Positions 385-16,446 of a stretch of DNA of 56,483 nt are shown here, piece after piece (position 1 is the stretch's first letter; each line of letters begins with the position of its first letter). The DNA lies in IMG/VR virus record IMGVR_UViG_3300047388_000152, positions 1 to 56,483 of that record; one strand, given 5' to 3'. This DNA comes from a virus. The notes beneath the pieces are model-generated. The model saw only the letters and a list, made by a program, of their open reading frames with translations, made no database searches and was not told the DNA's origin. A program made the position numbers and the translations under genes.

Positions 385-512
385 TGATTAGGTCAGCATA
401 CAGATTGAAAAGTTTTTCCGCGAAATCGCTCACACAGAGCGTAGAGACCGAGACTGGACTACTGTGTGTCTGACCTAATCATTCAGACCTAAAGCCGTTC
501 GGTCTCTTTTCT
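385..512 (+). ncRNA. Structured RNA, copy 1 (pseudoknot plus terminator)
   Basis: P1 pairs 386-396 (GATTAGGTCAG) with 470-480 perfectly over 11 bp. A small hairpin CGCTC-ACACA-GAGCG lies at 427-441. P3 pairs AGAGACCGA (443-451) with TCGGTCTCT (499-507) and is followed by a T-rich run, so it is a terminator. The 5' strand of P3 lies inside the P1 loop and its 3' strand lies beyond P1, giving an H-type pseudoknot or a mutually exclusive switch. An alternative pairing GTCTGA/TCAGAC overlaps the 3' strand of P1. The sequence TTGAAAAGTTT and the 3' end TCAGACC...GTTCGGTCTC recur in copy 2. No RNA family is recognised. Confidence 0.75.
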
Positions 513-550
513 TTTCCGACCGCCCAAAGTCTGACCGTTCTTCTATAGGT

Positions 551-781
551 ATGAGTCCGGCAAAATCAATCCTATGGCGTGTAACAGGGATTAACTTGTT
601 CACCCACCCTCAGACGCTGAAGTATCTCAGCGGTTACTTGTTTAGATGTCAGGCCATCTTTAATGACACGACAAGGAGCGTTCTCCACAGGGAGTTTCAC
701 CGTGCAATCGCTAAAACTCGAATATGGCCTTAGGGGTGACCGTGCAATGCTGATAAACTCACGGGGTACAGGAGGAATATT
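551..781 (+). other. Noncoding region 5' of HNH gene; possible decayed copy of an AAA-gene start
   Basis: A 60-codon frame at 551 is present but has no coding character. Bases 543-590 resemble the start of the AAA gene at 1522-1580 (TATAGGTATG versus AAGGATATG, then AAAAT..ATC.TATGG...GTAAC). The rest has local hairpins (CGCTGA/TCAGCG near 615-632, AGATG/CATCT near 642-657) and a repeated phrase ACCGTGCAAT. This could be the scar of the HNH insertion. I found no group I or group II intron core. Confidence 0.35.
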
Positions 782-1342
782 ATGTACGCAGACCCTGAGC
801 GTCAGAAAGCGTTTAGACGGGAGTATTTCCAAACCAAGACTAAACAATTAAGAGCAGACCGCAAGGCACAAGGCATATGCCGTTGTGGACGTGGAGAATG
901 TCTGCCTAGTCGTGCTTATTGCTTACAATGTAAGGCGTATGAACCAGTCATACGCAAGCGTAAAATAGCACGACGAAGAGAGATGGGACTGTGTCTTCGA
1001 TGCGGAAGCCGACCTCAAGAGAAGGATGTCACTTGTGACCGATGTAAGGTCAAAGACCGACTGAAACGTACCGCAGAACGACGACAAGTCTTAGACCATT
1101 ACGGCACAATGTGTGCTTGCTGTGGGGAAAAACAGGCACAGTTCCTGTGCATCGACCACGTCAATAATGATGGCAATGTACACCGAAAAACGTTGCAAAC
1201 AAACAACATTTATCGGTGGCTCCTACGCAATGACTTTCCAGTGGGATTCCAAGTGCTGTGCTTTAACTGCAATATGGCTAAAGCCATTTATGGCAAATGT
1301 CCACATCAAGCGGCACCATCACCACCCGGAACACGGTCATAA
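782..1342 (+). CDS. HNH homing endonuclease with zinc-binding CxxC pairs
   Basis: The AGGAGG at about 771 fits the ATG at 782. The protein is 186 aa. It has a basic N-terminus, CxC/CxxC clusters at residues 33-50 and 71-88, then an HNH core: CxxC at 111/114, the catalytic-type pair DH at 125-126 (CIDHVNNDG), Asn-rich middle, and a final CxxC at 160/163. This is the ribbon-plus-HNH layout of phage free-standing homing nucleases, which nick DNA to spread into empty alleles. It lies alone, flanked by about 200 nt of noncoding sequence on each side, just upstream of the AAA gene. The fold call is firm; homing is inferred. Confidence 0.85.
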   Translation: MYADPERQKAFRREYFQTKTKQLRADRKAQGICRCGRGECLPSRAYCLQCKAYEPVIRKRKIARRREMGLCLRCGSRPQEKDVTCDRCKVKDRLKRTAERRQVLDHYGTMCACCGEKQAQFLCIDHVNNDGNVHRKTLQTNNIYRWLLRNDFPVGFQVLCFNCNMAKAIYGKCPHQAAPSPPGTRS

Positions 1343-1540
1343 TTGCCAAGTTAGTTAAAAACGTTCTGTAAATCGGTAAGGTGAAAGGTCAGAGCAGTCA
1401 CCCGTCAACAAGTTCAGTAAATTCTGTAAGGGAACCTAAAGGGTACATCAAGCCCACACAGGCCGGAGCTATAGGAGAGCAAAGGCAATGGGTGGTTGTG
1501 TTCTAAATTCAGTAGTAACTAAGGAGAAGAATCTAAGGAT
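1343..1540 (+). other. Noncoding leader between HNH gene and AAA gene
   Basis: No plausible gene is present. Hairpins can be drawn (GGTGA/TCACC near 1380-1404). The region ends with AAGGAG (1520-1525) and AAGGAT just before the AAA start codon. It may be a 5' untranslated leader. No intron core motif was recognised. Confidence 0.4.
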
Positions 1541-2656
1541 ATGGGAAAAGTACAAAATATCTATGGGTCAGTAACGCGGTCTGAGGCGATGAAAACTATC
1601 ATCGCTCTAAGCAAGGGCGATGAATGGGGTTCGCCCCTTACGGTTTTAGTTACGGGGCCAATGGGTTCATCAAAGAGTGCGATGTTCCATGACTTGCAAC
1701 GTGCTTTGCCCACACACGATGGGTACTTTCACGATTGCACAACAAACGAAGCTGGTGACCTCCTGATGCCGTCTGTCACAGACAAAGACGCTGAGGTGCC
1801 TAAACTCCGCTTCGCTCCAGCAGAGACGCTAGGATTCACTAACAAGCGTCCTGTATTCATCTTTGCGGACGAACTGGACAAGGCTCCTAAAGCCATTCAG
1901 AACGTCTTTAACCGCATTGCTCACGAAGGGGCTTTGGGCAACTATGTATTGCCTCCGGGTTCGTTTATGGTGGCTACGTCCAACAGAACTGAGGAAGGTC
2001 TGGGGGATAATCGGCAGGCTAACATGCGTGACCGCACGGTGAGCATCGACATTAAGATGCCTGACTCTAAGGAGTGGATAGAGAACTACGCTCTAGGAGC
2101 TAACGTGCATCCTACCGTGCTAACTACGGTCTCAGAGATACCGGATATGCTGGCAGACTTTAGGGACGTAACAAAGGCGGCAGACAATCCCTACATCCAT
2201 CATCCGTCCGAGAATCGAGAACACGGCACAAGCTGTCGGTCGCTGGCTAACGCTTCTAAGGCTCTGTATCGTCTCGAAAAGGACGGACTCTCGGCAAGCG
2301 TCATAGCACACGTTCTTACAGGCATAATCGGTGCACCAGCGGCGGCAGAGATGATTTCAATTCACACTCTGCACAATGAGCTCCCTCGATATGACGAAGT
2401 TATCAAGAGTCCTGAAAAGGCTAAGATTCCTTCAAAGTCAGCGGCTATGTGCCTGTTCGTCTATACAGCTATACAGAGGGCAGAGCCTAAAGATGTAGCT
2501 TCACTAATGAAGTACGTGCAGCGTCTACCGTTGGAGCAACAGGCGATGTTTTTCTTTGGTGTTATCCGCAGTCCTAAAGCGGCACAGCTTACGCCTGAGA
2601 ATGGAATGATAGATTGGGGACGCACAAACTCGTGGCTTACCCGCAATGATAGTTAG
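1541..2656 (+). CDS. MoxR-type AAA+ ATPase
   Basis: 371 aa. Walker A is GPMGSSKS (residues 39-46) and Walker B is FIFADELDKAP (about 107-117). A sensor-1-like segment (FMVATSNRTEEGLGD) is followed by the arginine-containing NMRDRT. MoxR ATPases act as chaperones that remodel or metal-load partners, usually a VWA-domain protein. Such a partner with a MIDAS motif lies at 4065-5339, separated only by an antisense HNH gene and two small genes, so I infer they act as a pair. In phages such pairs are of unknown purpose. The gene overlaps the antisense HNH gene by 4 nt at the 3' end. Confidence 0.85.
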   Translation: MGKVQNIYGSVTRSEAMKTIIALSKGDEWGSPLTVLVTGPMGSSKSAMFHDLQRALPTHDGYFHDCTTNEAGDLLMPSVTDKDAEVPKLRFAPAETLGFTNKRPVFIFADELDKAPKAIQNVFNRIAHEGALGNYVLPPGSFMVATSNRTEEGLGDNRQANMRDRTVSIDIKMPDSKEWIENYALGANVHPTVLTTVSEIPDMLADFRDVTKAADNPYIHHPSENREHGTSCRSLANASKALYRLEKDGLSASVIAHVLTGIIGAPAAAEMISIHTLHNELPRYDEVIKSPEKAKIPSKSAAMCLFVYTAIQRAEPKDVASLMKYVQRLPLEQQAMFFFGVIRSPKAAQLTPENGMIDWGRTNSWLTRNDS

Positions 2657-3381
2657 AGTCCTATTCCCATCTCATCGAACCACTTCGGAGTTTCGCCTTT
2701 CACTTCAAAGCGTGTCTGAAACTTAATCGACTTGCGGTAGTTATCGCCCGGAGGGAGATATTGGAGATTGTTCGGAACGTGCAAGCCTGAAACCATCTTG
2801 CCGTGCAAGGGGATGATGTGGTCAACCGTCATCCCCTCTGGGCAATCTCGATAGGTTTGGCGTATCTTTGTGAGGTCTGACCAAGGGGGAATACGTTGTT
2901 TCTTCGCGGCTTCACGCTTGCGTTGAATGTGCAGATTGTAGGCTTTGGTATTCGCCTCTCCGTGAATCGTGTGGCAATTTCGCTGTACTTCACGAGCCAA
3001 GCATCCACAGGAACGTGTCGCAACTTTACCAGTGAGATTGCCGCGTACCACGTAGACAGTGTTGCCGCAGTCACACAAGCACTCCCATTCAGTGCCTTGT
3101 CCGTGGCCATTTACCTGTCCGCGTAGTTTGTGAATCTTAATGGCAATCAGACGGCCAAATCGCTTGCCACCTAAATCGTTTTTGAGCAACGTGGTAGCAA
3201 TCATCTCTTTGGTCTTACATCCACAAGAACGAGAACGTCCATCCGCTATGCAAATAGCAGTCACGTGACGTTCAGTCCCACACTTACAGCGACATAGGGC
3301 TTTATGCTTATTAGATATGGGCGTTTCCAATACAGTCCAGTCGCCAAAAGTCTGCCCTTGCTGTATAACGGGATATTTCAT
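2653..3381 (-). CDS. HNH homing endonuclease with N-terminal zinc ribbons
   Basis: 242 aa on the strand opposite to all neighbours. Two tandem ribbon repeats (CRCKCGT...SCGC; CLCDCGN...SCGC) occupy roughly residues 28-130. The C-terminal HNH core is GMTVDHIIPLHGKMVSG...PNNLQYLP...N.RKS. The ribbons probably read DNA and the HNH domain nicks it. Insertion between the AAA gene and its downstream partners splits the presumed ATPase/VWA operon. A TATAAT box upstream on this strand suggests its own promoter. It shares its ribbon style with the HNH genes at 42547 and 45447. Confidence 0.87.
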   Translation of the reverse strand: MKYPVIQQGQTFGDWTVLETPISNKHKALCRCKCGTERHVTAICIADGRSRSCGCKTKEMIATTLLKNDLGGKRFGRLIAIKIHKLRGQVNGHGQGTEWECLCDCGNTVYVVRGNLTGKVATRSCGCLAREVQRNCHTIHGEANTKAYNLHIQRKREAAKKQRIPPWSDLTKIRQTYRDCPEGMTVDHIIPLHGKMVSGLHVPNNLQYLPPGDNYRKSIKFQTRFEVKGETPKWFDEMGIGL

Positions 3382-3401
3382 TAACGCACCAACTAACGGT
3401 T

Positions 3402-3407
3402 ATTATA
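3402..3407 (-). promoter_or_regulatory. Candidate -10 box for the antisense HNH gene
   Basis: On the - strand this reads TATAAT, about 20 nt before the ATG at 3381. No good -35 is visible at 16-18 nt. Homing genes often carry their own promoter when inserted against host transcription. Confidence 0.35.
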
Positions 3408-3505
3408 ACATTGAGAGAGTCTTTACAGGAAGGCAAAAATCAGAGATGGTTGGTGGCCTCAGACAACTAATTTGTAAAGGCTCCCACTTTTACTTTGGAG
3501 AATCT

Positions 3506-3748
3506 ATGAGTGCAAGAGGCGACATTATGCGGCTTATAGGTCGCAAGACTGACCCGGTTAGCATAATCACAACCACCACTTACAAGTACACGGCCTCAAA
3601 CAAGAAAGATATAAAGACCCTCAATGAGGGGAATATACCGCGTGATTTAGGTGTGGCGATACACGTTCTAAGGCTGAACGGGCACACCGTCACAAAGGAG
3701 CGTTGGGACTACGAAGGTGGATTTTCTTTTGATGTAGTGGAGAAATAA
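3506..3748 (+). CDS. Small hypothetical protein, 80 aa
   Basis: I chose ATG 3506 because TTTGGAG precedes it at good distance. An upstream ATG at 3317 would place 63 residues over the HNH promoter and coding region and looks spurious. The protein (MSARGDIMRLIGRKT... ending SFDVVEK) has a plausible alpha/beta pattern, but no family is recognised. Its stop abuts the next start (3749). It probably belongs to the AAA/VWA transcription unit interrupted by the HNH insertion. Confidence 0.65.
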   Translation: MSARGDIMRLIGRKTDPVSIITTTTYKYTASNKKDIKTLNEGNIPRDLGVAIHVLRLNGHTVTKERWDYEGGFSFDVVEK

Positions 3749-4060
3749 ATGGCAAAAGCAATAACCAAATACAAGGGTTTCAGCTACGAGGACGAATCAC
3801 GGCCTTTGGCAAAGGTGGCTTATATGGACGGATATGCTTTCGGTGACACGTTGTTGGAGGGCGTTCCGTTCAAGTGTGAAGTCACTGACAGTGGTGAATT
3901 GCAAGTCGGATTTGCAGAGCCTACGGGCTTCTACGAACAGGAGCTTAACCAGCCTTTATGGAATGCAAGGGCTTTGAAATACGCGAAGGAAGAGGACGTT
4001 TTCTATGAAAACGCAGAACTGACGGCAGGGGAAGATTTGTACTTAGAAAAGGCAGACTAA
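3749..4060 (+). CDS. Hypothetical acidic protein, 103 aa
   Basis: Starts directly at the end of the preceding gene, and its stop lies 4 nt before the VWA gene, so the three look cotranslated. It begins MAKAITKYKGFSYEDESRP and has an acidic C-terminus (KEEDVFYENAELTAGEDLYLEKAD). No catalytic motif or known family is visible. The tight packing against the VWA gene suggests an accessory role in that module; this is inference. Confidence 0.7.
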   Translation: MAKAITKYKGFSYEDESRPLAKVAYMDGYAFGDTLLEGVPFKCEVTDSGELQVGFAEPTGFYEQELNQPLWNARALKYAKEEDVFYENAELTAGEDLYLEKAD

Positions 4061-4064
4061 AGAT

Positions 4065-5339
4065 ATGGCAAAAGCAGTACAGCAAAAACTAACCGCAGAA
4101 CAAAGAGTCACCAAAGCACTGGTTTGGATACTCAGGTCGCCCAACTTCCTAAGTATGTACCCCACGGCCTGTATCGGGGAGACTCGCGTAATCCACGATG
4201 AAAAGGCGTGGCCGTCACCGATGAAAACCGGATACACGGACGGTCGCAATATCCGGTTTTGGCACGAGTTTGTTGATAACTCATCAGACGAGACTTTACG
4301 AGCGGCAATCCTTCACGAAACAGGTCACATTCTCGCACGTCACATACTGAATTATCAGCACCTGTGGCATCAGAATGCACAGCTTGCCAACATCGCGGCA
4401 GACCATTGGGTGAACAATATGCTCAAGGCTCACAACGACACGGGCATAGCCATTGGTGCGGATTGGTTCTGTGACCCTAAGTACGCCGACAGTTCCAAGT
4501 GGGACGTTACAAAGATTTTCAAAGACCTTCAAAAGAACGGCAAAGGACAAGGCAAGTGCAACGGTAACTGCCAACAGGGTAAAGGCTCAGGACGGCCTAA
4601 CGGCCAATGTACCTGCCCACAAGGGTTCGATGAACACGGCTGGGAAGATGGAAATTCCCTAAGTCCTGAGGAACAAAAGCAACTGGCACAGGACGTAGAC
4701 CAAGCTATTAGGCAAGGACAAAGACTCGCGGGGCAGATGAATGGCAACAAGGATTTAGCCATAAATGAACTACTAAAGGTACGGACAGATTACAAGGAAG
4801 CATTCCGAGAGTGGATGCGTACCTACACTCGTGGTGGAGATGACTTGTCGTGGGCTAGAGTCTCACGAAGGGCTATAGCGAACGGTGAACTAATGCCCGG
4901 AAGTATCTCTGAAGCTATGGGTGAACTGGCAATTTGCATAGACACTTCGGGCAGTATCTCGCAAGCAGAGCTAACGGTGTTTCTGTCTAACGTGGCTCTC
5001 ATCACTCAGACCATTAAGCCTCTAAAGATTCGGCTAATTTACTGGGACACGGTTTGCCACGGTATAGAAACCTATGAGCCGCACCAATATGACACAATAG
5101 CTCAGAGCACTAAGGCTAAGGGTGGTGGTGGTACACAGGTAGAATGCGTACCGCCTTACCTAGAGGCTCAGGGCATCAAGCCAGAGGTGATACTGGTTCT
5201 GTCAGACGGTTATTTGTTCTCACCACCACCGGATTTTCCTGCTCCTACGCTGTGGGCGATTCTTCCGGGCAATGAGGGCTTTACTGCACCCCTACCACAA
5301 AAAACAATTCACTTGCCGGATGGGTGGAGTGAGGATTGA
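4065..5339 (+). CDS. VWA-domain protein with N-terminal metallopeptidase-like domain (DUF2201 type)
   Basis: 424 aa. The N-terminal domain has HETGH (residues 84-88), a zinc-metallopeptidase-like signature, followed by a helical region. A Gly/Cys-rich linker (about 160-190, with CNGNC and CTC) connects to a C-terminal von Willebrand A domain whose MIDAS motif DTSGS is at 293-297, with later GGGGTQ and a DGYLF segment. This is the usual architecture of the VWA partner of MoxR ATPases, and the ATPase lies at 1541. It may bind metal-dependent protein targets. Whether the HETGH site is active is not known. The gene is followed at once by the YLKGQxKW paralogs. Confidence 0.85.
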   Translation: MAKAVQQKLTAEQRVTKALVWILRSPNFLSMYPTACIGETRVIHDEKAWPSPMKTGYTDGRNIRFWHEFVDNSSDETLRAAILHETGHILARHILNYQHLWHQNAQLANIAADHWVNNMLKAHNDTGIAIGADWFCDPKYADSSKWDVTKIFKDLQKNGKGQGKCNGNCQQGKGSGRPNGQCTCPQGFDEHGWEDGNSLSPEEQKQLAQDVDQAIRQGQRLAGQMNGNKDLAINELLKVRTDYKEAFREWMRTYTRGGDDLSWARVSRRAIANGELMPGSISEAMGELAICIDTSGSISQAELTVFLSNVALITQTIKPLKIRLIYWDTVCHGIETYEPHQYDTIAQSTKAKGGGGTQVECVPPYLEAQGIKPEVILVLSDGYLFSPPPDFPAPTLWAILPGNEGFTAPLPQKTIHLPDGWSED

Positions 5340-5345
5340 TGATGG

Positions 5346-5615
5346 ATGATGACTGACTACCTAAAGGGGCAGAGGAAGTGGCTGCGTAAGACTGGAGTCA
5401 CAGTAGGAAGTCCCGTGATGGTGATTGCAGAGCCTACGGGAACAATCGAGGATGAATCGTGGGGGTTGCCACTGGAGTATGTAGGGAAGGCGACGACTGT
5501 CAAACAGATAGACTCTGACCGTATCCGTATCAATCATCCTACGAGTGAGAGTCCCCTAGTTTGGTGGGGGGCTCCTTTCTACTGTCTAGTACCTGTAGAG
5601 GGGTCAAGATACTGA
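5346..5615 (+). CDS. YLKGQxKW-family small protein, member 1
   Basis: 89 aa. Starts ATG 5346 (a second ATG follows directly). Family features are YLKGQRKWLRKTGVTVG near the N-terminus, then VMVI, a Trp in the middle, YVGKATTV and a C-terminal aromatic strand WGAPFYCLVPVEG. The layout (K-rich helix, then VGxxV, then VGKxGxV, then PFxCLxP) is shared with genes at 6237 and 6563 and partly 6838, so the cluster arose by duplication. The fold may be a small SH3-like barrel (inference). Function unknown. Confidence 0.75.
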   Translation: MMTDYLKGQRKWLRKTGVTVGSPVMVIAEPTGTIEDESWGLPLEYVGKATTVKQIDSDRIRINHPTSESPLVWWGAPFYCLVPVEGSRY

Positions 5616-5626
5616 CAAGATGTCAG
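5603..5626 (+). promoter_or_regulatory. Dispersed 23-bp element, site 2 (24-nt variant)
   Basis: The arm GTCAAGATA is one base longer than in other copies, followed by a perfect dyad CTGACA-AGA-TGTCAG. It ends 7 nt before a GTG start (5634), which has no Shine-Dalgarno, and overlaps the end of the previous gene. Confidence 0.7.
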
Positions 5627-5633
5627 CGAAACC

Positions 5634-5930
5634 GTGAAAAACATACAGTCTGGATGGTGTAAGGGTGATGCTCTAGTCGCACGTGCTCAAGGTTGGGAAT
5701 TACGGGTAGACCACGAAGGACGCCTTTGGGCTGATGACGTATCCAGAGGCATTAGATTTAATGGAAAGGCATTCCAAACCGTCCTAGAGACTGCAATGAC
5801 AGGGGATGCAGCAGCCTACAAAGCTTTGCGTTGGCTGGCAAAGAACAATCCGTCCTACAGGAAGTGGAAAAAGACTGTACGGGCTATCTATAAGCAATTC
5901 CATCGTGTCAAAAGCACAGAAAGGACATAA
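5634..5930 (+). CDS. Hypothetical protein, 98 aa; paralog of the next gene
   Basis: GTG start placed 7 nt after the 23-bp element. It shares with the gene at 5935 a block AMTGDAAAYKALRWLA (AMTGNVQYLKALGVLA in the paralog) followed by a Lys/Trp-rich helix (YRKWKKTVRAIYKQF versus YKEWRPTVLSLYRSV). The N-terminal half contains VDHEGRLWADDVSRGIRF. The fold is probably alpha/beta. The pair sits inside the YLKGQxKW cluster. Function unknown. Confidence 0.7.
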   Translation: MKNIQSGWCKGDALVARAQGWELRVDHEGRLWADDVSRGIRFNGKAFQTVLETAMTGDAAAYKALRWLAKNNPSYRKWKKTVRAIYKQFHRVKSTERT

Positions 5931-5934
5931 TTTG

Positions 5935-6240
5935 ATGGCTACACGACACTTCAGGTCTAAATGGTGTTCCCTTGGTGCGTTCTTGTGTCGAGACCCTTCA
6001 CATTGGAAGTGGGAGGAAGTACGAGATAGAAACGGGAACGTGACGCCGTTAGTGTGGGATTGGCAAGAACATTGTGTGGCTCTAGCCCATCGGCAGACAA
6101 TGGATTCGTTGGTCGACCAGGCTATGACGGGCAATGTTCAGTACCTAAAGGCTCTGGGCGTACTAGCTTGGCAAAGAGAGGACTATAAAGAGTGGAGGCC
6201 GACAGTTTTGAGCCTCTATAGGTCGGTGATGGAGAAATGA
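5935..6240 (+). CDS. Hypothetical protein, 101 aa; paralog of the preceding gene
   Basis: Starts ATG 5935, with AAGGA upstream. A longer frame from 5806 would run over the previous gene, so I rejected it. It is the paralog of the 5634 gene over its C-terminal half (AMTGNVQYLKALGVLAWQREDYKEW). The stop overlaps the next start in ATGA (6237-6240), so translation is coupled to the YLKGQxKW-family gene. No known family. Confidence 0.72.
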   Translation: MATRHFRSKWCSLGAFLCRDPSHWKWEEVRDRNGNVTPLVWDWQEHCVALAHRQTMDSLVDQAMTGNVQYLKALGVLAWQREDYKEWRPTVLSLYRSVMEK

Positions 6241-6560
6241 AAGACGACTACGTAAAACAGCAATCTAAGTGGTTGGAAAATACCGGATTGCAGGTTGGTG
6301 ATAAGTGCATTGTCGCGTTTTCACCGTCTTCTTTTGAGGAAGGCGAGAATTGGCACGGGTGGACGTGTGGGTGGGCTGAAGAGATGAACGATTGCGTAGG
6401 GAAGGTGGGGGTGATTCAAGCTATCGGGACGGCATACTATCACGCTGAGACGCCATTAAAGAACGGCATAGGGCTTGTGGTTCCGGGTGATGGACATCCT
6501 CAAGACGCTAAGGCGTGGTTCTATCCTTTCTTTTGTTTAATTCCTGCTGGAGATGAATAA
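6237..6560 (+). CDS. YLKGQxKW-family small protein, member 2
   Basis: 107 aa, coupled to the preceding gene through ATGA. It has YVKQQSKWLENTGLQVGDKCIV at the N-terminus, a longer Trp-rich insertion (WHGWTCGWAEEMND), CVGKVGVIQ, and the terminal strand AWFYPFFCLIPAGDE. The shared frame with members 1 and 3 (VGxxV, VGKxG, PFFxL) shows common descent. It has the longest insertion of the four. Function unknown; probably an early accessory protein. Confidence 0.75.
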   Translation: MKDDYVKQQSKWLENTGLQVGDKCIVAFSPSSFEEGENWHGWTCGWAEEMNDCVGKVGVIQAIGTAYYHAETPLKNGIGLVVPGDGHPQDAKAWFYPFFCLIPAGDE

Positions 6561-6562
6561 CT

Positions 6563-6838
6563 ATGACAAACGAAGACAAGGCAACGAAACTTTATCTTAA
6601 GGGCCAGACCAAGTGGTGCAAGAACGCCAACATTGAGGTTGGAACAAAGGTCACCATCTTACAGGCCGCTGAATCGAATCAAGCAGGATGGCCGTCTCCC
6701 TTTCCTGAGTTTATGTTAAATTACGTGGGTAAAACAGGCACAGTGGTATGGCCAGATGACGTTGGTGGGGTGATGGTGGAGATGGAGGACGGGATTACTG
6801 TCCACTTTCCCTTCTTTATTTTATGCAAGGCTGAGTGA
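6563..6838 (+). CDS. YLKGQxKW-family small protein, member 3
   Basis: 91 aa. It has LYLKGQTKWCKNANIEVGTKVTIL, a central GWPSPFPEF, YVGKTGTVV, and a C-terminal strand VHFPFFILCKAE, all matching the family pattern. It starts 2 nt after the previous stop. The stop overlaps the next ATG in TGATG. It is the clearest consensus member. Function unknown. Confidence 0.77.
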   Translation: MTNEDKATKLYLKGQTKWCKNANIEVGTKVTILQAAESNQAGWPSPFPEFMLNYVGKTGTVVWPDDVGGVMVEMEDGITVHFPFFILCKAE

Positions 6839-7835: not shown

Positions 7836-8048
7836 GTGGAAAACGAAAAATCAGGGATTGACGTATTGTACTCACCGAACGGCAAATATGTCGGGTGGTT
7901 TCTGGATAAACACTATGTCTTTACGCCTTGGAAGCCGTCTGTGACACAAGGTTTGGGCCTTACGCTCAACGAAGCCGTTCAGTGGGCATTGAGAATGCGG
8001 GAGAGCGGGTATAAAGTACGAATCTTACCCGCAAATAAAAAACTTTAG
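7836..8048 (+). CDS. RSPSGRY/LNEAV-family small protein, member 1
   Basis: 70 aa, GTG start at 7836. Family pattern: a short leader, then YSPNGKYVGWFL (the S/RSPxGxY block), a variable aromatic middle, LTLNEAVQWALRMRESGY (the LNEAV helix), and a last strand KVRILPANKKL. Size and order match ten other genes in this window. I know no named family for it. It lies just before the promoter of structured RNA 2. Confidence 0.72.
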   Translation: MENEKSGIDVLYSPNGKYVGWFLDKHYVFTPWKPSVTQGLGLTLNEAVQWALRMRESGYKVRILPANKKL

Positions 8049-8050: not shown

Positions 8051-8079
8051 TTGACATCCGTAGAGACTTTTTCCAAACT
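8051..8079 (+). promoter_or_regulatory. Sigma70-like promoter of structured RNA 2
   Basis: TTGACA (8051-8056), a 17-nt spacer, then a weak CAAACT (8074-8079). The -35 and spacing match the promoters of RNA copies 1 and 3. Confidence 0.6.
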
Positions 8080-8085
8080 GTTAGT

Positions 8086-8213
8086 GGGTAAGCTACGAAC
8101 AATAGGCTTGAAAAGTTTGTGCAGATAAATCCCTTCGGGGATTTTTAGAGGCCGAGACCGTGCTTGTTGTTCTGAGCTTACCCGTTCAGACCAAATGGTT
8201 CGGTCTCTTTTTC
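8086..8213 (+). ncRNA. Structured RNA, copy 2 (pseudoknot plus terminator)
   Basis: P1 pairs GGGTAAGCT (8086-8094) with AGCTTACCC (8175-8183). P2 is AAATCCC-TTCG-GGGATTT (8127-8144) with a stable UUCG tetraloop. P3 pairs AGAGGCCGA (8147-8155) with TCGGTCTCT (8200-8208) with one G.U, then a T run; a second register GAGACCG/CGGTCTC is also possible. The a-b-a'-b' order again gives a pseudoknot. It shares TTGAAAAGTTT before P2 and TTCAGACC..., GTTCGGTCTC at the 3' end with copy 1. Confidence 0.77.
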
Positions 8214-8594: not shown

Positions 8595-8596
8595 GG

Positions 8597-8619
8597 GTCA
8601 AGCACTGACATCGTGACAG
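8597..8619 (+). promoter_or_regulatory. Dispersed 23-bp element, site 3
   Basis: The arm GTCAAGCA is followed by CTGACA-TCG-TGACAG. The site ends 6 nt before the ATG at 8626 of the next (broken) family gene, again with no separate Shine-Dalgarno. Confidence 0.78.
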
Positions 8620-10553: not shown

Positions 10554-10852
10554 CCAGAGAGGGAGAGGAATTGGTTGAGAAGGCGCGGGTGTTTTTGAAG
10601 CAGCGAAATAAGGTCGAGTACGGCACACCAAGTGTGAATTACACGAGTGCTAATGCGGCAGAGATGGCTGACTTCGCCCAACAGGTCGCAGACGAGAGGG
10701 TGAGGGGCATAGGTGTCAAGGAAACTTGTGAGAACGGGCATGATTTTATAAAACTGCCTAACCATCCCACGAAAAATGGATTGGCACGGTGTCCATACTG
10801 CTTAAGCATCGGTTTTGACAAACTGTTGGAGTCCGGCAAGAGGCAGGGATGA
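10550..10852 (+). CDS. Small protein with a C-terminal zinc-finger-like motif, 100 aa
   Basis: Overlaps the ParB-like gene in ATGA. The C-terminal half contains CENGHDF...LARCPYCLSIG, a Cys/His set (C-x3-H...CxxC) that could bind zinc. The N-terminal half is helical and charged. No family is recognised. Its stop overlaps a possible upstream start of the next gene. Probably a DNA-transaction accessory. Confidence 0.68.
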   Translation: MTREGEELVEKARVFLKQRNKVEYGTPSVNYTSANAAEMADFAQQVADERVRGIGVKETCENGHDFIKLPNHPTKNGLARCPYCLSIGFDKLLESGKRQG

Positions 10853-10896
10853 CGAGCCTCGCAAAAAAGTTTTGGGATAAGCGGCAAGGAGCAACT

Positions 10897-11289
10897 ATGA
10901 ACGAACGGGATCAAATCAACGAGCGAATCGCGGAGTGGCTTGGGCTGTGCTGGCACGAGTTCAGGGTTAAGCCGTTGCCGGTGCTTGGTGTGCCAACGTG
11001 CATCCATTGCGGCGAAACGACCAGCCGCATTTCCCTTGAGCACAGTGACCAGAATCCAGATTTCAGCACCTTCCCCGGAATGGAGATACTGCTGGCCGGG
11101 CTGCGGCTAAAGGGATGGAATGTGAAACTTTTCTCACATTCAACCGATCCCCAGTCCGCATCCATTTTCGTGCCTACGGACAAATACAAGACCAGTTTTG
11201 CAAAGGCTGACACACTCCCTGACGCTCTGTGCGAGGCAACTTTGAAACTTATCGAATCGGAGGCTAACGATGCCGGATCAGAAAACTAG
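10897..11289 (+). CDS. Phage ABA-sandwich-like protein, 130 aa
   Basis: I use ATG 10897, preceded by AAGGAG; an in-frame ATG at 10849, coupled to the previous stop, would add 16 residues. The pattern is an N-terminal helix (IAEWLGLCWHEFR), a CIHCG pair, NPDFSTFPGMEILL and a C-terminal helix. This matches small phage proteins annotated as ABA sandwich domains (from memory of that family). Function unknown. Base composition here and in the next gene is richer in G+C than in the neighbours, which suggests recent acquisition. Confidence 0.7.
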   Translation: MNERDQINERIAEWLGLCWHEFRVKPLPVLGVPTCIHCGETTSRISLEHSDQNPDFSTFPGMEILLAGLRLKGWNVKLFSHSTDPQSASIFVPTDKYKTSFAKADTLPDALCEATLKLIESEANDAGSEN

Positions 11290-11797
11290 AGAGGCGATAA
11301 GGAATTTGCCAGTGAAGCGTGACATCTTCTCCGGAGTATCATCTGCCGACCTCAAGGACTTGCTTGATACGCTCACCGACCTAGAGGCTGAGAGGGATAG
11401 GTACAAGGTGGCGTTGAACTTCTATGTGCATACGTGCGACCAGGAAAAGGAGATTCGAGACAAGCAGATCGCCCTTCTTGTGGCTGAGTGTGATAAGCGC
11501 GGCGTCAAAAAGATGGACTTCGATGAGTACGTAGTCGGACAACAGACCATCAAGGCCTTGAATCAACCCGTGACACTCAGTATTCGAGCGGGGGTGGAGT
11601 TCTCGATTTACAACAACGCAATCCCCAAGTTCACATTGGAGTTCAGGTGCAAGGTCGAGACCGAGAACGGCGGATGGAGCGGATACATCGTACCCGTCGA
11701 GAAGTTCGACACCCTAGACGAGATGTTTAAACGAGCGGCGGAAGCGATGGTTAACCCTTTTGTTCTTACCCCGACCGAGCAAAGTGAAGCAGTCTGA
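11270..11797 (+). CDS. Hypothetical protein with coiled-coil N-terminus, 175 aa
   Basis: Overlaps the previous gene by 20 nt. Residues about 25-75 form a likely coiled coil (DLKDLLDTLTDLEAERDRYKVALNFY...EKEIRDKQIALLVAECDK). A beta-rich C-terminal half follows (VTLSIRAGVEFSIY...FTLEFRCKVET). No family is recognised. It is G+C-richer than the genes on either side, like its upstream neighbour, so the two may have arrived together. Confidence 0.68.
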   Translation: MPDQKTREAIRNLPVKRDIFSGVSSADLKDLLDTLTDLEAERDRYKVALNFYVHTCDQEKEIRDKQIALLVAECDKRGVKKMDFDEYVVGQQTIKALNQPVTLSIRAGVEFSIYNNAIPKFTLEFRCKVETENGGWSGYIVPVEKFDTLDEMFKRAAEAMVNPFVLTPTEQSEAV

Positions 11798-11804
11798 GAA
11801 AATT

Positions 11805-12038
11805 ATGAGTAATAAATACACCATTACCGACGATATACCAATTCCCGAACCTCAACAGAGAACACACATAGGACTTACTGCCACTCTCCGGTCAATGGAG
11901 GTGGGACAGAGTATTGTTCTGCCTAAAGATTCAAGACCGAATGTTCTGAGCATTGCACAGGCGGCGAAACTGAAGATACGGACGCGCTCGGAGAGTGTGG
12001 ACACTATTAGGGTGTGGAGAGTGAAGGATGATACGTAA
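11805..12038 (+). CDS. Small hypothetical protein, 77 aa
   Basis: Starts ATG 11805; an upstream ATG at 11760 is inside the previous gene and was rejected. The protein (MSNKYTITDDIPIPEP...) has a C-terminal half (SMEVGQSIVLPKD...LSIAQAAKLKIRTRSESVDTIRVWRVKDDT) resembling small phage proteins with an alternating strand-helix pattern and a basic patch, possibly DNA-binding. No named family is certain. The 3' end overlaps a 44-codon zinc-ribbon ORF. Confidence 0.68.
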   Translation: MSNKYTITDDIPIPEPQQRTHIGLTATLRSMEVGQSIVLPKDSRPNVLSIAQAAKLKIRTRSESVDTIRVWRVKDDT

Positions 12039-12162
12039 GGCCATCTGTATTTTATTCCATCGTTGGTATCGAGATAAGGACGGTAAGCCCGGTGCTTATT
12101 GCCCGAAGTGTAATTTAGTGTGGACTTGGGGAAATTGTAAGGAGAAAAATGCAGACAAGTAA
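12028..12162 (+). CDS. Tiny zinc-ribbon-like protein, 44 aa
   Basis: ATG 12028 to TAA 12160-12162, overlapping both neighbours (11 and 14 nt), as is common in this packed arm. The sequence includes YCPKCNLVWTWGNC, so a CxxC plus later Cys could bind zinc. Basic N-terminus. Too short for a family call. Confidence 0.5.
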   Translation: MIRKAICILFHRWYRDKDGKPGAYCPKCNLVWTWGNCKEKNADK

Positions 12163-12853
12163 AATTCAGCATATTGGAGAGATTAGCTCTTTCAATACAG
12201 ACAATGGATTACTCTATTCCGTACCTCTACGGTTAGAAGACGGGTCAGAAGGTTTGACCTTTAAGAAGTCGGCAGACGCCTTGAGCGTCGGTCAGGAGAT
12301 TACCTACACCATCGAAGAAAAGACCAGTAGACAGGGTAAGACCTACAACAAGATTACTGAGGTAAAAGAGGATACTCGGCGTGGCTCTAGTGGTGGCGGT
12401 AAGTCCTACTCCGACCCAAAGACAATGATTTTGGCGTTCAGTAAGGATGTAATCGTGGCCGCTATGTCTAACGGTCTTATCGAACCAGACGCCGACTACT
12501 TTCAAGCAACAATCGACGGTGCTGACAGGTTTATGCAGTGGTACGAAGGTCACAGTGGTAAACAGAACGTGGAGTTTACTGCTGATTCAATGTCAGTAGC
12601 TCGTGATGTACCTCAACAGAGACAAGAATCTGTAGAACGTGCGTTTACGGGTGACCCTGTTGCCAAGAACCTTGGAGATATGATTACGTCCAAACAGATA
12701 GGACTCGTCCGTGCTAAGGCTCGTGAACACAATATCGACGCTGAAGCTCTGTGTTCAGAGATGTTTGGTTGTGATGTAGAGGATTTAAGTAAAGAGTCGG
12801 CAAGTAGTTTTATAGACAGACTGCTGGAGGTGGCTAAAAGTGGTGGAAGATAA
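12149..12853 (+). CDS. OB-like ssDNA-binding/recombination accessory protein
   Basis: 234 aa, with GGAG upstream. The N-terminal 75 residues look like an OB fold (HIGEISSFNTDNGLLYSVPLRLEDG...VGQEITYTIEE). A Gly/Ser linker (RRGSSGGGKSYSD) follows. The C-terminal domain, ITSKQIGLVRAKAREHNIDAEALCSEMFGCDVEDLSKESASSFIDRLLEV, resembles the helical tail found on phage single-strand-annealing and SSB-related proteins. I infer binding of single-stranded DNA in replication or recombination. The neighbours (ParB-like genes, Hjc-like resolvase, DnaB) fit that role. Confidence 0.65.
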   Translation: MQTSKIQHIGEISSFNTDNGLLYSVPLRLEDGSEGLTFKKSADALSVGQEITYTIEEKTSRQGKTYNKITEVKEDTRRGSSGGGKSYSDPKTMILAFSKDVIVAAMSNGLIEPDADYFQATIDGADRFMQWYEGHSGKQNVEFTADSMSVARDVPQQRQESVERAFTGDPVAKNLGDMITSKQIGLVRAKAREHNIDAEALCSEMFGCDVEDLSKESASSFIDRLLEVAKSGGR

Positions 12854-13223
12854 GTACGCATATCTCGATGACACGCCGGAGTCCATCTACAAAGAACTCA
12901 AAGACCTAGAAACCTCTCTGTTAGACGCCTCTCAGGGCGTTAGAGATAAAGGCCGACAGGCCGTCAATGCCAAAGCGGTCTATGATGCCGCCAAACACAC
13001 CGAGTTGGTGCATCTCTACGCTGACGAAGCGGACACTCCCGGTCTTAAACGAACGGAACTGCAACGAGCAGTCTTATACCGTACAAAACACGCCACGGAG
13101 CGTCTGGCGTGGGTATTGGCCGACAGGGAGTATGAGGTAGCCAGAGACTACGTTAAGAGCTTACAGGCGGTTCTAATGAGCATCCAGACACGTTCTAGGT
13201 TGCTACGAAAAGATTTCGACTAA
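12840..13223 (+). CDS. All-helical hypothetical protein, 127 aa
   Basis: GTG start overlapping the previous gene by 14 nt, which suggests translational coupling with the OB-like protein. The sequence is almost entirely helical, with long Lys/Glu/Arg heptads (ESIYKELKDLETSLLDASQGVRDK...ATERLAWVLADREYEVARDYVKSLQAVLMSIQTRSRLLRKDFD). Proteins of this size and pattern often sit beside phage recombination genes. No specific function. Confidence 0.68.
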   Translation: MVEDKYAYLDDTPESIYKELKDLETSLLDASQGVRDKGRQAVNAKAVYDAAKHTELVHLYADEADTPGLKRTELQRAVLYRTKHATERLAWVLADREYEVARDYVKSLQAVLMSIQTRSRLLRKDFD

Positions 13224-13261
13224 ATTTCCCAAAACCAAAGCAGAAAGGAGAATGACATTAT

Positions 13262-14011
13262 ATGTCTAAAGTAGAACCACGTACTGTTACCAGTACTTCT
13301 GACTACAATCTATTCACTCGCCTTCCGGGTAATCGTGACATCGACCCGATTCACGTTAATAACCTAGTGAAAGCGATGGAGAAAGAGTACGTCTTTGACC
13401 CAATCTCCGTTAATGAGAGCTTCCAAGTTCTCGACGGACAACATCGCCTAGAAGCCCATAAACGCCTAGGCATCCCCGTGCCTTACTACTGGGATACCGT
13501 AGGCGATTTGGAGACCGTTCAAAAGCTCAACAACAGCCAAAAGAACTGGACTAATGAGGATTATACCAAGTCTTTCATCGAACGTGGATTCAAGGATTAT
13601 GAAATCTACAAATCGTTCAAAGAGGCTTATGGTCTGCCTCACGTTATTTGCATCATCCTTCTCTCTGGAGAACATCGTGGTCGCAATAAGATGTTCAAGA
13701 CTGGGAATTTTACAGTGCGGAATCTCAAGTTGGCACAGCAGAAAGCCACCATCCTCACTCAACTGGAACCGTACTTCTCTCATTGGAAAGAAGCGTCGTT
13801 CTTACGAGCTATGAACAAGGCTCTCATTAAAGAAGGATTTGACGTTCAGACCTTTATCCACAGAGCGGCGGCTAATAGCACAATGTTTGTTCCGTGTACG
13901 TCAGTAGACCAGTATCTTCTCTTGATTGAGAACGTCTACAACTTCGGTGCGGCTACCAAGACCGGAATTAGATTCGCGGCTGACGATGTGAACTCACCTT
14001 GGAAAGACTAG
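13262..14011 (+). CDS. ParB-like (Srx-fold) protein, second copy
   Basis: 249 aa, with AAAGGAGAA just upstream of ATG 13262. It carries the ParB/Srx signature (VNESFQVLDGQHRLEAHKRLGIPVPYY, residues about 50-76), giving an N-terminal ParB nuclease-like domain. The rest is helical and not closely similar to the ParB-like protein at 9723. Many phage proteins with this fold bind DNA or nucleotides; some act as enzymes. The start of the gene contains a weak partial match to the 23-bp dyad. Role unknown. Confidence 0.72.
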   Translation: MSKVEPRTVTSTSDYNLFTRLPGNRDIDPIHVNNLVKAMEKEYVFDPISVNESFQVLDGQHRLEAHKRLGIPVPYYWDTVGDLETVQKLNNSQKNWTNEDYTKSFIERGFKDYEIYKSFKEAYGLPHVICIILLSGEHRGRNKMFKTGNFTVRNLKLAQQKATILTQLEPYFSHWKEASFLRAMNKALIKEGFDVQTFIHRAAANSTMFVPCTSVDQYLLLIENVYNFGAATKTGIRFAADDVNSPWKD

Positions 14012-14021
14012 GAGATAGACA

Positions 14022-14276
14022 ATGACACCTCAAGCATTACTTAAACTCGCGCAGGCCGAGAAAGAGCCTGAACCGTCTAGTAAGTCCGTGTGCTGGCCAT
14101 ATCTCGAATCTGCCCACATTCTCCGTCAAAAAAGGTGGATGTGGAAAGACATCAGTTCGTGGATGACGGAGCACGCGGGTATTACACTCAAAGACATCAA
14201 AGCGTGGCAACGACACCACCACCGTTGGGTTGCGGTGAATAACATTCCGCCAATTAAAAGGGAGAAACTGAAATGA
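14022..14276 (+). CDS. Small helix-turn-helix paralog 1 of 3
   Basis: 84 aa. It begins MTPQALLKLAQAEKEPEP and contains YLESAHILRQKRWMWKDISSWMTEHAGITLKDIKAWQRHHHR. The pattern (I-x2-LR-x-KG/RW-x-W-x2-I-x2-W) is shared with the next two genes and looks like a helix-turn-helix that reads DNA. The stop overlaps the next ATG (14273). Tandem duplication is evident from the shared M-S/T-PExLL start. Confidence 0.7.
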   Translation: MTPQALLKLAQAEKEPEPSSKSVCWPYLESAHILRQKRWMWKDISSWMTEHAGITLKDIKAWQRHHHRWVAVNNIPPIKREKLK

Positions 14277-14545
14277 GTCCTGAAGAATTACTTGAACTAG
14301 CAAGAGGGGTGGTGGCCAAACCACCCAAACTCAAAGGAATGATGCGTTACGCACGAGCGATGGAAGTCCTGCGTAGGAAAGGTTTTACGTGGGCGTCCAT
14401 TGCAGAATGGTTTAACGAACAAGGCATTCCGGTCAAACACCCTCAATCCCTAGCGGCTACTCTTAGGAAATGGGGCAAGACTCCTGACTACTTGGAGTTC
14501 TGTGCTCAGGAAGACAAAGAGAGCGAACTGAATGTCCAGAGCTAA
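14273..14545 (+). CDS. Small helix-turn-helix paralog 2 of 3
   Basis: 90 aa, coupled to paralog 1. MSPEELLELARGVV, then MEVLRRKGFTWASIAEWFNEQGIPVKHPQSLAATLRKW gives the clearest helix-turn-helix of the three. The C-terminal tail is acidic. It probably binds DNA as a small regulator, or is part of a multi-protein complex with its paralogs. The target is unknown. Confidence 0.72.
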   Translation: MSPEELLELARGVVAKPPKLKGMMRYARAMEVLRRKGFTWASIAEWFNEQGIPVKHPQSLAATLRKWGKTPDYLEFCAQEDKESELNVQS

Positions 14546-14729
14546 GGTAGGACTGGCTGACACCTACATAGACACCATCATTTTCCTTCGAGAGAGTGGG
14601 TACAAATGGCCGCAAGTCCAAGAATGGTTCGCCAAGCAGGGATTAGTGTTTAGTGTTGGTACACTTCAACAAGCACATCAGAGACACTTTGGTTCAACAT
14701 ACGTGAAATATGAGCGGAATAAGGTCTAG
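14532..14729 (+). CDS. Small helix-turn-helix paralog 3 of 3
   Basis: 65 aa, overlapping paralog 2 by 14 nt. It lacks the LL-rich N-terminal leader and keeps only the helix-turn-helix core (IDTIIFLRESGYKWPQVQEWFAKQGLVFSVGTLQQAHQRHFG). It overlaps the resolvase-like gene at its 3' end, so it is translated with the nucleic-acid enzymes downstream. Function unknown. Confidence 0.7.
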   Translation: MSRAKVGLADTYIDTIIFLRESGYKWPQVQEWFAKQGLVFSVGTLQQAHQRHFGSTYVKYERNKV

Positions 14730-15051
14730 AAGGAAAGGGCATCTGCTAGAACGCGAGATGGCAAAGCGTTTCAGAGACTTAGGTTTCGATGCTACAACTT
14801 CTCGCTTTTCTTCGCGTGAGGAAGATAATAAGTGTGTTGACCTTTGTGGGGTAGACCCGTTTGCCGTTCAATGTAAAAGCACGGCGACTATCAACTGTCA
14901 TACGGAGCTAGAGAAGATTGACGGCGGTTCTCGCTACAAAGTTCTTGTCCATAAGCGTAAGCAACGTGGGTGTATTGTGGCGTTACCGTTAGATGACTTT
15001 ATGGAGATTGTTGAGCTTTTGGTGGCACACGGTTGCATCAAAACGAATTGA
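14710..15051 (+). CDS. Hjc-like Holliday junction resolvase / PD-(D/E)XK nuclease
   Basis: 113 aa. The fold signature is a basic start (SRRKGHLLEREMAKRFRDLGFDATTSR) with an N-terminal Glu, then CVDLCGVDPFAVQCKST giving the D...QxK half of the PD-(D/E)XK active site, as in Hjc-type resolvases and related phage nucleases. It would cleave branched DNA during recombination or packaging. It follows the helix-turn-helix trio and precedes a Rho-independent terminator (15094-15127), so it ends this unit. Confidence 0.75.
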   Translation: MSGIRSRRKGHLLEREMAKRFRDLGFDATTSRFSSREEDNKCVDLCGVDPFAVQCKSTATINCHTELEKIDGGSRYKVLVHKRKQRGCIVALPLDDFMEIVELLVAHGCIKTN

Positions 15052-15093
15052 ACGGTGGGATTGTTACCTTAGATTCTCTCCCGCTGTTCATAA

Positions 15094-15127
15094 GGGCATC
15101 CGGCACAACGGGTGTCCTTTTCTTATT
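15094..15127 (+). terminator. Rho-independent terminator after the resolvase gene
   Basis: Stem GGGCATCCG (15094-15102) with CGGGTGTCC (15109-15117), two G.U pairs, loop GCACAA, then TTTTCTTATT. It is well placed for the + strand early genes. Confidence 0.75.
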
Positions 15128-15328
15128 ATGATACGAGCAATTCCAACGTGGGTACTGACGAATATCAGTACGCCGTTCCTACCCAAGACGCATCCGTGGA
15201 AAGGTCGGTGGTTCACGTTATCAGACTGGGCTATACATCAAACATCGCTCTGTAAAGAGTTTGATTATGTATTTTGGTGTAGTGCTCTATGTGGTTGTGT
15301 TTTCTTGTATTTAATAACTCGCGGTTAA
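15128..15328 (+). CDS. Possible small membrane protein, 66 aa
   Basis: ATG 15128 follows the terminator's T run with no clear ribosome site. The C-terminal part (YVFWCSALCGCVFLYLITRG) is a plausible membrane segment and the N-terminal part has several Pro/Trp residues. It contains a partial palindrome (GTACTGA/TCAGTAC near 15150). The ORF may be fortuitous. Confidence 0.35.
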   Translation: MIRAIPTWVLTNISTPFLPKTHPWKGRWFTLSDWAIHQTSLCKEFDYVFWCSALCGCVFLYLITRG

Positions 15329-15336
15329 AGTGACTT

Positions 15337-15435
15337 ATGAACCACGTAACAAGAGGATGTCTGGTGATGCTGGCGTTAGCCTTTGGGTTCTTACTCGTCC
15401 TAGTGGTGATGATGCTGATTCTGGCTAAGAACTAG
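15337..15435 (+). CDS. Small single-span membrane protein, 32 aa
   Basis: ATG 15337 to TAG 15433-15435. It is nearly all hydrophobic (CLVMLALAFGFLLVLVVMMLIL) with a short MNHVTRG head and AKN tail, so one membrane helix. Its last base is the first base of dispersed element site 4. Phages encode many such peptides; function unknown. Confidence 0.45.
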   Translation: MNHVTRGCLVMLALAFGFLLVLVVMMLILAKN

Positions 15436-15457
15436 TCAAGCACTGCCATCGTGTCAG
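15435..15457 (+). promoter_or_regulatory. Dispersed 23-bp element, site 4
   Basis: The arm GTCAAGCA is followed by CTGCCA-TCG-TGTCAG. Ends 2 nt before the ATG at 15460. As with sites 1-3, it occupies the ribosome-binding position. Confidence 0.78.
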
Positions 15458-15459
15458 CG

Positions 15460-15588
15460 ATGCTCAATACTGCCGTTGAACGTCTCTTAGAACGCGACAT
15501 CGACCTTCCTTTACGCCAAAAGGTGATGAAGGTTCTGATAGAGGTGCGAGAGTTTGAGTCGCCGTCCATTAGTCTTGGGAAGAGATAG
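15460..15588 (+). CDS. Small hypothetical protein, 42 aa
   Basis: ATG 15460 to TAG 15586-15588, immediately after dispersed element site 4. Amphipathic helical sequence (VERLLERDIDLPLRQKVMKVLIEVREFE). It ends 9 nt before the tryptophanyl-tRNA-synthetase-like gene, whose Shine-Dalgarno (GAGGAG) overlaps this gene's end, so the two are likely cotranscribed. No family. Confidence 0.55.
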   Translation: MLNTAVERLLERDIDLPLRQKVMKVLIEVREFESPSISLGKR

Positions 15589-15597
15589 AGGAGAGGA

Positions 15598-16257
15598 ATG
15601 AAAATACTAAGCGGAATTAGACCATCGGGACGATTACATCTGGGGAATTTCATCGGTTCAATACTCCCCGCGATGAAATATGACGCGGAAGTATTGATAG
15701 CTGAGTATCATTCCATCGACGGAGATGCGGAGGATTTGATAGCTCAACTGTCCCCATTCTTTCCTGCATCGCGTATTAAGCGTCAATCTGAGCATTTCAA
15801 CGCTAAACTCTATTTCAATCTACTGAGCTTGTCTCCTGATGGTTTGCTACGACATATGCCTCAGTATAAGAGTCAGGGAAAAACTGCCGATATGTTCGTC
15901 TACCCAGTGTTGATGGCTCACGATTTAGTGGGCTATGACAGGGTGATTGTCGGTGAAGACCAGAGGCCTCATATCGAGTTTGCACGAGATATTTTGCATA
16001 AAATCAACGAAGTGTGTCCTGAACCTATTTACGAGGGCGGAAAGGTGATGGACTTGCGAGACCCGACTCGAAAAATGAGTAAGTCTCTGCCGGAAAGTTG
16101 TTTCTTTCTAGGCGATGAACCAAACAAGATTATGAAAGCAGTGACAACTCCCGCAGGGCGAAAGAACCTTGAATTTATTGCAGATGCTCTCAACGTGGAG
16201 TATCCCTACGGAGATAATAAATCTCTCAAAGAGGCAATCATCGAGAAGCTGCCGTAA
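15598..16257 (+). CDS. Miniature tryptophanyl-tRNA synthetase homologue
   Basis: 219 aa, with GGAG before ATG 15598. Class I synthetase motifs are intact: SGIRPSGRLHLGN with HLGN (HIGH motif) at 14-17, VGEDQ ending at 122 (the TrpRS-type GEDQ), and KMSKS at 159-163. Cellular TrpRS has about 330 residues; this one is shortened by some 30 residues between the first motifs and has only about 56 residues after KMSKS, so the helical anticodon-binding part is largely missing. It could charge tRNA poorly, activate tryptophan for another acceptor, or have a new role. Structured RNA 3 lies 20 nt downstream. Function unproven. Confidence 0.85.
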   Translation: MKILSGIRPSGRLHLGNFIGSILPAMKYDAEVLIAEYHSIDGDAEDLIAQLSPFFPASRIKRQSEHFNAKLYFNLLSLSPDGLLRHMPQYKSQGKTADMFVYPVLMAHDLVGYDRVIVGEDQRPHIEFARDILHKINEVCPEPIYEGGKVMDLRDPTRKMSKSLPESCFFLGDEPNKIMKAVTTPAGRKNLEFIADALNVEYPYGDNKSLKEAIIEKLP

Positions 16258-16276
16258 ATATTTCAAAAGATAGGGG

Positions 16277-16305
16277 TTGACTTTTCCGTTGAGGGTGGCG
16301 AGAAT
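16277..16305 (+). promoter_or_regulatory. Sigma70-like promoter of structured RNA 3
   Basis: TTGACT (16277-16282), a 17-nt spacer, GAGAAT (16300-16305). Same spacing as the promoters of RNA copies 1 and 2. Confidence 0.6.
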
Positions 16306-16311
16306 AGTAAC

Positions 16312-16446
16312 TGGCACGAACAGAATGGCTTTCTAGAGCATCACAATTTTAGTAAAAGTCCATAGAACCGAAAGGTGTCTATGGCAGAGACCGAGACCTT
16401 TAGGAGCCGTTCGTGCCGAATTGCTTTTCTTGGTCTCTTTTTTTTT
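16312..16446 (+). ncRNA. Structured RNA, copy 3 (pseudoknot plus terminator)
   Basis: P1 pairs GGCACGAAC (16313-16321) with GTTCGTGCC (16409-16417). P2 is CCATAGAACC-GAAA-GGTgTCTATGG (16360-16384), a GNRA-tetraloop hairpin with one bulge. P3 pairs AGAGACCGA (16386-16394) with TTGGTCTCT (16430-16438) with one G.U, followed by a long T run. P1 sequence differs wholly from copies 1 and 2 while pairing is kept, so the stem is under selection. The AGAGACCGAGAC motif is shared by sequence in copies 1 and 3 (AGAGGCCGAGAC in copy 2). Confidence 0.77.

Follow-up and report, generated by a model that had tools for sequence, protein, structure and literature searches.

Three copies of a structured RNA of ~130 nt were found in the genome of an uncultured phage, and they appear to represent a new small family of phage RNAs that, judging from sequence, probably gates early gene expression. 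The reading that we prefer, with a probability of roughly 40%, is that the RNA is an "RNA gate", attenuating transcription close to the promoter, which would control early operons and release a stable small RNA. That the structured RNA family is real we regard as very probable.

The window, i.e., the whole stretch of DNA analysed, is a linear IMG/VR virus record of 56,483 bases with 48% G+C. Plus-strand genes occupy 1–28 kb (small unknown proteins, endonucleases, and replication genes), and minus-strand genes occupy 28–56 kb (structural genes). No DNA relative of the first 25 kb was detected in INPHARED. Matches of the IS1595 transposase and of the replication initiator were scattered over many phyla, so no host was assigned. 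The three RNA cassettes are located at 350–515 (c1), 8051–8213 (c2), and 16277–16446 (c3). They are intergenic and co-oriented, all on the plus strand, spaced by 7.7 and 8.2 kb and positioned at the heads of ~8-kb early gene blocks.

The preliminary description had reported a recurring ~130-nt architecture at three sites, and all of its elements were located where it placed them, including a TTGAC-17-box promoter in every copy. Each cassette consists of a sigma-70-like promoter, the 5' strand of helix P1, an A/U-rich spacer, hairpin P2, the core AGAGRCCGAGAC, the P1 3' strand, 10–17 nt, TYGGTCTCT, and a T run. In c1, the promoter predicted from the sequence is TTGACC-17-TAGACT (350–378), followed by the P1 5' strand TGATTAGGTCAG (385–396, predicted RNA start near 385), the P1b 5' strand CATACAG (397–403, partner at 462–468), P2 with the stem CGCTC/GAGCG (427–441), the invariant core AGAGACCGAGAC, which is also the P3 5' strand (443–454), the P1 3' strand CTGACCTAATCA (470–481), and the P3 3' strand TCGGTCTCT with a T-rich tail, the predicted terminator (499–515). 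The corresponding elements of c2 are the promoter TTGACA-17-CAAACT (8051–8079), P1 strands GGGTAAGCT (8086–8094) and AGCTTACCC (8175–8183), the P1b 5' strand GAACAATAGGC (8097–8107, partner at 8162–8172), P2 (8127–8144), the core AGAGGCCGAGAC (8147–8158), and the P3 3' strand TCGGTCTCT with the T run (8200–8212). Those of c3 are the promoter TTGACT-17-GAGAAT (16277–16305), P1 strands GGCACGAAC (16313–16321) and GTTCGTGCC (16409–16417), P2 (16360–16384), the core AGAGACCGAGAC (16386–16397), and the P3 3' strand CTTGGTCTCT with a run of nine T (16429–16446). As described earlier, P2 is capped by UUCG or GNRA loops in two copies (UUCG in c2, GAAA in c3). P3 is formed by the first 9–10 bases of the core and TYGGTCTCT, which adjoins the T run, so that the helix abuts the T run exactly like a terminator stem.

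Scanning IMG/VR for the core and its complement identified one contig, L039 (11,014 bases), with a fourth copy at 2722–2884. It comprises the promoter TTGACA-17-GAAAAT, P1 CTGTCGGAAAA/TTTTCCGACAG, P2 CGGTGA-UUCG-UCACCG, the core AGAGACCGAGACC, and the P3 3' strand CTCGGTCTCTTTTTTT. In all four copies, the 5' end of P1 lies 34–36 nt after the start of the -35 box, which is the predicted +1 position. A further homologue with covariation, proposed earlier as a check, is thus at hand in an unrelated phage: apart from the replication-initiator domain, no convincing protein similarity was found between the two phages. Only a single copy was seen on the 11-kb contig, and the family as known has four members in two phages. 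Attempts to reach relatives through DnaB returned intein homologues only, and neither the 708-aa late protein nor the terminase of L039 led to any.

Looser patterns applied to viral contigs and 84,980 GTDB genomes recovered only ordinary terminators. The matches in L056–L071 contained the core and its complement but not P1, P2, or the promoter and were classified as plain terminators; in L005, the core occurred by chance. A covariance model of the RNA (R1) scored L039 at 72.9 bits, a value obtained with L039 in its training set, and had no match among 45 further viral records; at E ≤ 0.001, it had none either in 392 genomes from the phylum to which a Gemmataceae genome belongs. A model restricted to the core and P3 (R2) was non-specific, since the ordinary terminator L058 outscored L039 (48.8 vs. 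32.9 bits). The earlier statement that no known RNA family has this plan agrees with Rfam 15, which gave no matches in the window at the gathering threshold; at E ≤ 5, the c1 and L039 regions yielded two sub-threshold chance matches, both outside the RNA.

A sequence-blind descriptor that prescribes nothing but the succession a–hairpin–b–a'–b'–TTTT noticed in the preliminary description matched the window at exactly c1, c2, and c3 (scores 27.0–27.5), and the scan of the L039 contig gave 30.0. Scores of at least 27 were thus reached three times in the window, whereas 300 dinucleotide shuffles averaged 0.0033 such hits (maximum 1). Among other loci (1.9 Mb scanned), a handful of unrelated matches had similar scores, and the descriptor by itself is therefore no proof. 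Descriptor matches in L027, L121, and L139 were rejected as lacking the promoter and the core, and L027 had a local terminator hairpin of its own. Minimum free energy z-scores were -3.8, -4.4, -2.9, and -3.4 for c1, c2, c3, and L039, respectively.

Outer P1 is perfectly paired in every copy (11–12 pairs in c1, 9 in c2, and 9 in c3), with a different sequence each time, as had been claimed. Over the four copies, all nine aligned pairs were altered on both sides with 100% pairing retained, and pairing fell to 35–47% when the partner strand was slid by 1–3 columns; these values come from a four-sequence alignment built by hand from the helix arms, which leans toward structure. P3 behaved differently. 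It is paired in 4/4 copies, as noted before, with seven of nine pairs invariant and two showing one-sided A-U/G-U or G-C/G-U changes, so that the G·U replacements previously called compensating are not two-sided. The earlier term "covarying pseudoknot" is accordingly correct for P1 only: the two interleaved helices have the order of an H-type pseudoknot, P1 covarying at 9/9 pairs and P3 being fully paired and nearly invariant. P3 is constrained in sequence, and the helix is not proven by covariation.

The sequence of the core itself is under constraint beyond pairing. The conserved block, given earlier as AGAGRCCGA, is present and paired as stated but longer, an invariant 12-mer AGAGRCCGAGAC. 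It is followed by C in 3/4 copies, and the block therefore reads as a tandem A-GAGACC-GAGACC; the tandem is exact in c3 and L039 and has one substitution each in c1 and c2. Avoidance of BsaI sites (GAGACC/GGTCTC) was rejected as an explanation, the counts matching expectation.

Helix P1b extends P1 inward in all four copies to an imperfect arm of ~20 bp. In c1 and L039 it consists of 7 bp preceded by a bulge, in c2 of 11 bp preceded by a 2x2 loop, and in c3 it is irregular. The linker between P1 and P3 (a'–b') is 10–17 nt long. In A-form geometry, a linker of this length can span 9–12 pairs, whereas 20 would hardly be within its reach. P1b and P3 should therefore be mutually exclusive, which suggests a two-state switch in which P3 needs P1b to be opened. 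The calculated energies of the P1-only and P3-only folds were -44.9 vs. -32.1 kcal/mol in c1, -39.2 vs. -40.1 in c3, and -36.6 vs. -33.5 in L039; they are near-equal in c3 and L039, and P1 is favoured in c1 and c2. Across copies, such estimates give no uniform bistable design. We infer the pseudoknot from complementarity and the terminator position, while the predicted energies prefer one helix alone, differing by copy.

The operon context bears on function. In the intergenic sequence of 1–28 kb, a TTGAC site spaced 17 nt from an nARAMT box occurs only in the three cassettes and at 26863. With so few such promoters in the plus-strand gene block, the cassettes look like operon promoters; promoters of a different type may also exist in the early block. 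Downstream of c3 are a small GIY-YIG-like endonuclease ORF without a Shine–Dalgarno sequence (16461–16808, plus strand, 14 nt past the terminator), the replication initiator, or replisome organizer (16805–17650, plus strand), and then DnaB. In L039, 20 nt separate the end of the RNA from a homologous initiator, which matches the N-terminal domain of the window protein (E 8e-8 over 36 aa). The start codons adjoining the c3 and L039 RNAs lack a Shine–Dalgarno sequence (many genes of the window have one), and the gaps of 14 and 20 nt leave no room for another promoter. The link between RNA and initiator is suggestive, not general, because none of 80 other phage loci with the same initiator domain contained the RNA.

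From these observations of architecture, P1 covariation, core invariance, and operon position, the following mechanism can be proposed. Transcription would start at P1, the promoter and start being predicted from sequence. P1a and P1b would form first, as an arm of ~20 bp whose apical loop contains the GAGACC-GAGACC core. The core could then capture the emerging GGTCTC to form P3 at the cost of P1b, giving a pseudoknotted intrinsic terminator at whose T run RNA polymerase would halt; the gate would be closed, and a stable small RNA left behind. If P1b and the core were kept engaged, e.g., by a bound factor, polymerase would read through into the downstream genes, which in c3 and L039 are those of the replication-initiator block. 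The putative core-binding factor may be a phage or host protein or the RNA of another copy. We favour this attenuator model because the cassette promoters look like operon promoters and the expression of replication genes requires passing the terminator ahead of them. It gains weight from the cassettes being co-oriented at the heads of early blocks and, in c3 and L039, 14–20 nt before a start codon. P3 without covariation support and predicted energies that are not uniformly bistable count against it. So do c1 and c2, where the next ORF is 136–270 nt away and has a Shine–Dalgarno sequence; a free-standing RNA gene fits there equally well.

Nearly as likely as the attenuator is a trans-acting small RNA: the cassette could be a self-contained phage small-RNA gene (an RNA "moron") whose invariant GAGACC-GAGACC loop base-pairs with a target RNA or binds a host factor that is conserved, whether or not as a decoy, a possibility only somewhat less credible to us. 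Every cassette is complete with promoter, RNA, and terminator and starts ~3–20 nt from the upstream stop codon, which in c1 overlaps the -35 box. The core is invariant across very distant phages where P1, P2, and spacers diverge, as would suit a recognition element presented by a structural scaffold. As regards seqA/seqC-like sites for antisense pairing of the P4 CI/C4 kind, the GGTCTC complement of the core lies inside each cassette itself, and other sense sites were at chance level except that at 26909. The best non-self sense pairing to the core in the window (-17.3 kcal/mol, nine contiguous pairs) falls in the leader 26899–26960, preceding the gene at 26960. This leader follows the sole other TTGACA-17-nAAACT promoter (TTGACA-17-GAAACT) and carries CTTGGTCTCC beside a hairpin that covers GGAG and would sequester the Shine–Dalgarno sequence; the region (26863–26932, plus strand) is a candidate trans target, a lead only. 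With P = 0.0044 per leader and ~0.3 sites expected over 76 genes, the pairing is by itself compatible with chance. No homologous target was found in L039, and a small-RNA gene leaves the location directly before the replication gene in both phages unaccounted for. Appreciably less likely, a new class of trans-acting phage RNA might be considered, in which a freely evolving P1/P2 scaffold would display the invariant tandem loop, with its own pseudoknotted terminator as a cap, and capture an RNA of the host or a conserved factor of the host, e.g., as a decoy in counter-defence or host takeover.

By presumed action, the nearest known systems would be rep-leader attenuators, the P4 CI RNA, and the HK022 putRNA, none of which we claim as the same family. 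In HK022, the put RNA is reported to suffice for suppressing pausing and termination (PMC9378689). A putRNA-like role, with the nascent RNA binding RNA polymerase and making it termination-resistant over early genes, seems improbable here: the likeness is that of structured, nascent, promoter-proximal RNAs heading early phage operons (PMC9378689), but the cassette has its own strong predicted terminator immediately downstream. The pseudoknot and the built-in terminator distinguish the phage cassettes from put. The put RNA presumably differs from the cassette RNA also in sequence and size.

Similarly doubtful is antisense-type immunity or copy control, in which the RNA of one copy would set termination at another by pairing with its nascent b'. 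The P4 CI RNA is a short phage RNA tied to the control of a replication gene via transcription termination (PMC4825925), and in pT181/pIP501-type leaders a terminator just upstream of the replication gene competes with an alternative leader pairing (PMC5703833); replication genes are the targets of both systems, and they would be those of c3 and L039 as well. Identity of b and b' between copies would also explain conservation within the genome, but the 11-kb L039 contig shows one copy only and yet has the same core. The position of the terminator is pT181-like in c3, where one small ORF intervenes, and in L039, at a distance of 20 nt, but not in c1 and c2, and the phage differs in its helices of pseudoknot order a-b-a'-b' and in carrying the element three times. 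The search for a counter-transcript promoter over the cassettes was negative: no sigma-70-like minus-strand site scoring 9/12 points into any of them, the one at 16266–16237 pointing away. In contrast to the P4 CI and C4 RNAs, the cassette RNA has no sequence or Rfam match (also at E ≤ 5), its own terminator, a long P1 arm, and no known processing sites. To our knowledge, Rfam includes the C4 antisense RNA.

Two further comparisons are more distant. Racr RNAs (RNA anti-CRISPRs, solitary repeat units) are small promoter-driven phage RNAs that mimic CRISPR repeats (PMC10651486). The cassette RNA is likewise small, promoter-driven, and phage-borne, but by description Racr copies the CRISPR repeat, whereas here P1 and P2 vary freely and only the loop core is fixed. 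A long 5' closing stem and a large internal single-stranded region recall 6S RNA; the cassette RNA is shorter, its 3' end is a separate pseudoknotted terminator, and no Rfam 6S match was obtained.

That there is no RNA system at all, only chance or three ordinary terminators sharing a stem sequence, is very unlikely given the independent copy in L039: core and P3 alone are indeed not diagnostic, as the R2 scores illustrate, but P1, P2, and the promoter stand at fixed spacing in 4/4 copies and in none of the other pattern matches, and shuffles yield 0.003 such structures per window.

If the proposed model is true, this would be a structured phage RNA family new to Rfam, whose intrinsic terminator is a pseudoknot spanning the RNA's own leader stem, and a terminator built in this way would be an unusual regulatory device. 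The question can be tested directly, given that the RNA is linked to the replication initiator in two phages that differ widely.

The asymmetric 24-bp repeat CTGWCAYNNTGNCAGTRCTTGACC, composed of a dyad and a TTGACC arm, was found eight times in the window versus zero expected. Three copies were located on the minus strand (131-154, 8596-8619, and 15434-15457) and five on the plus strand (25314-25337, 35014-35037, 36667-36690, 48410-48433, and 55451-55474). The orientation was opposite to local transcription in seven of the eight copies. These repeats resemble stoperator-type repressor sites.

The DnaB-like helicase (17647-19971) was split by a LAGLIDADG intein at residues about 190-570, which matched inteins within proteins of other phages. 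Residues 2-185 of a 219-aa protein (15598-16257) matched the domain of class I tRNA synthetases (W and Y), and this protein is apparently a truncated or repurposed synthetase. The early region of the phage also contained a complete IS1595-family transposase gene (21974-22933, minus strand). Two late proteins encoded on the minus strand, of 2128 aa (31214-37600) and 708 aa (49817-51943), had no matches in Pfam, and no relatives of the 708-aa protein were found in INPHARED or IMG/VR.

The fourth promoter, TTGACA-17-GAAACT, and its leader occupied positions 26863-26960. The leader carried CTTGGTCTCC, which is complementary to the structured-RNA core, and its GGAG was covered by an 8-bp hairpin. 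In two other phages (loci L083 and L096), long-range terminator stems of the GCCCCATC...GATGGGGC(GGCCTTTT) type were detected directly upstream of the replication initiator gene near position 8001. These stems possibly represent a further leader RNA, in addition to the structured RNA of the window.
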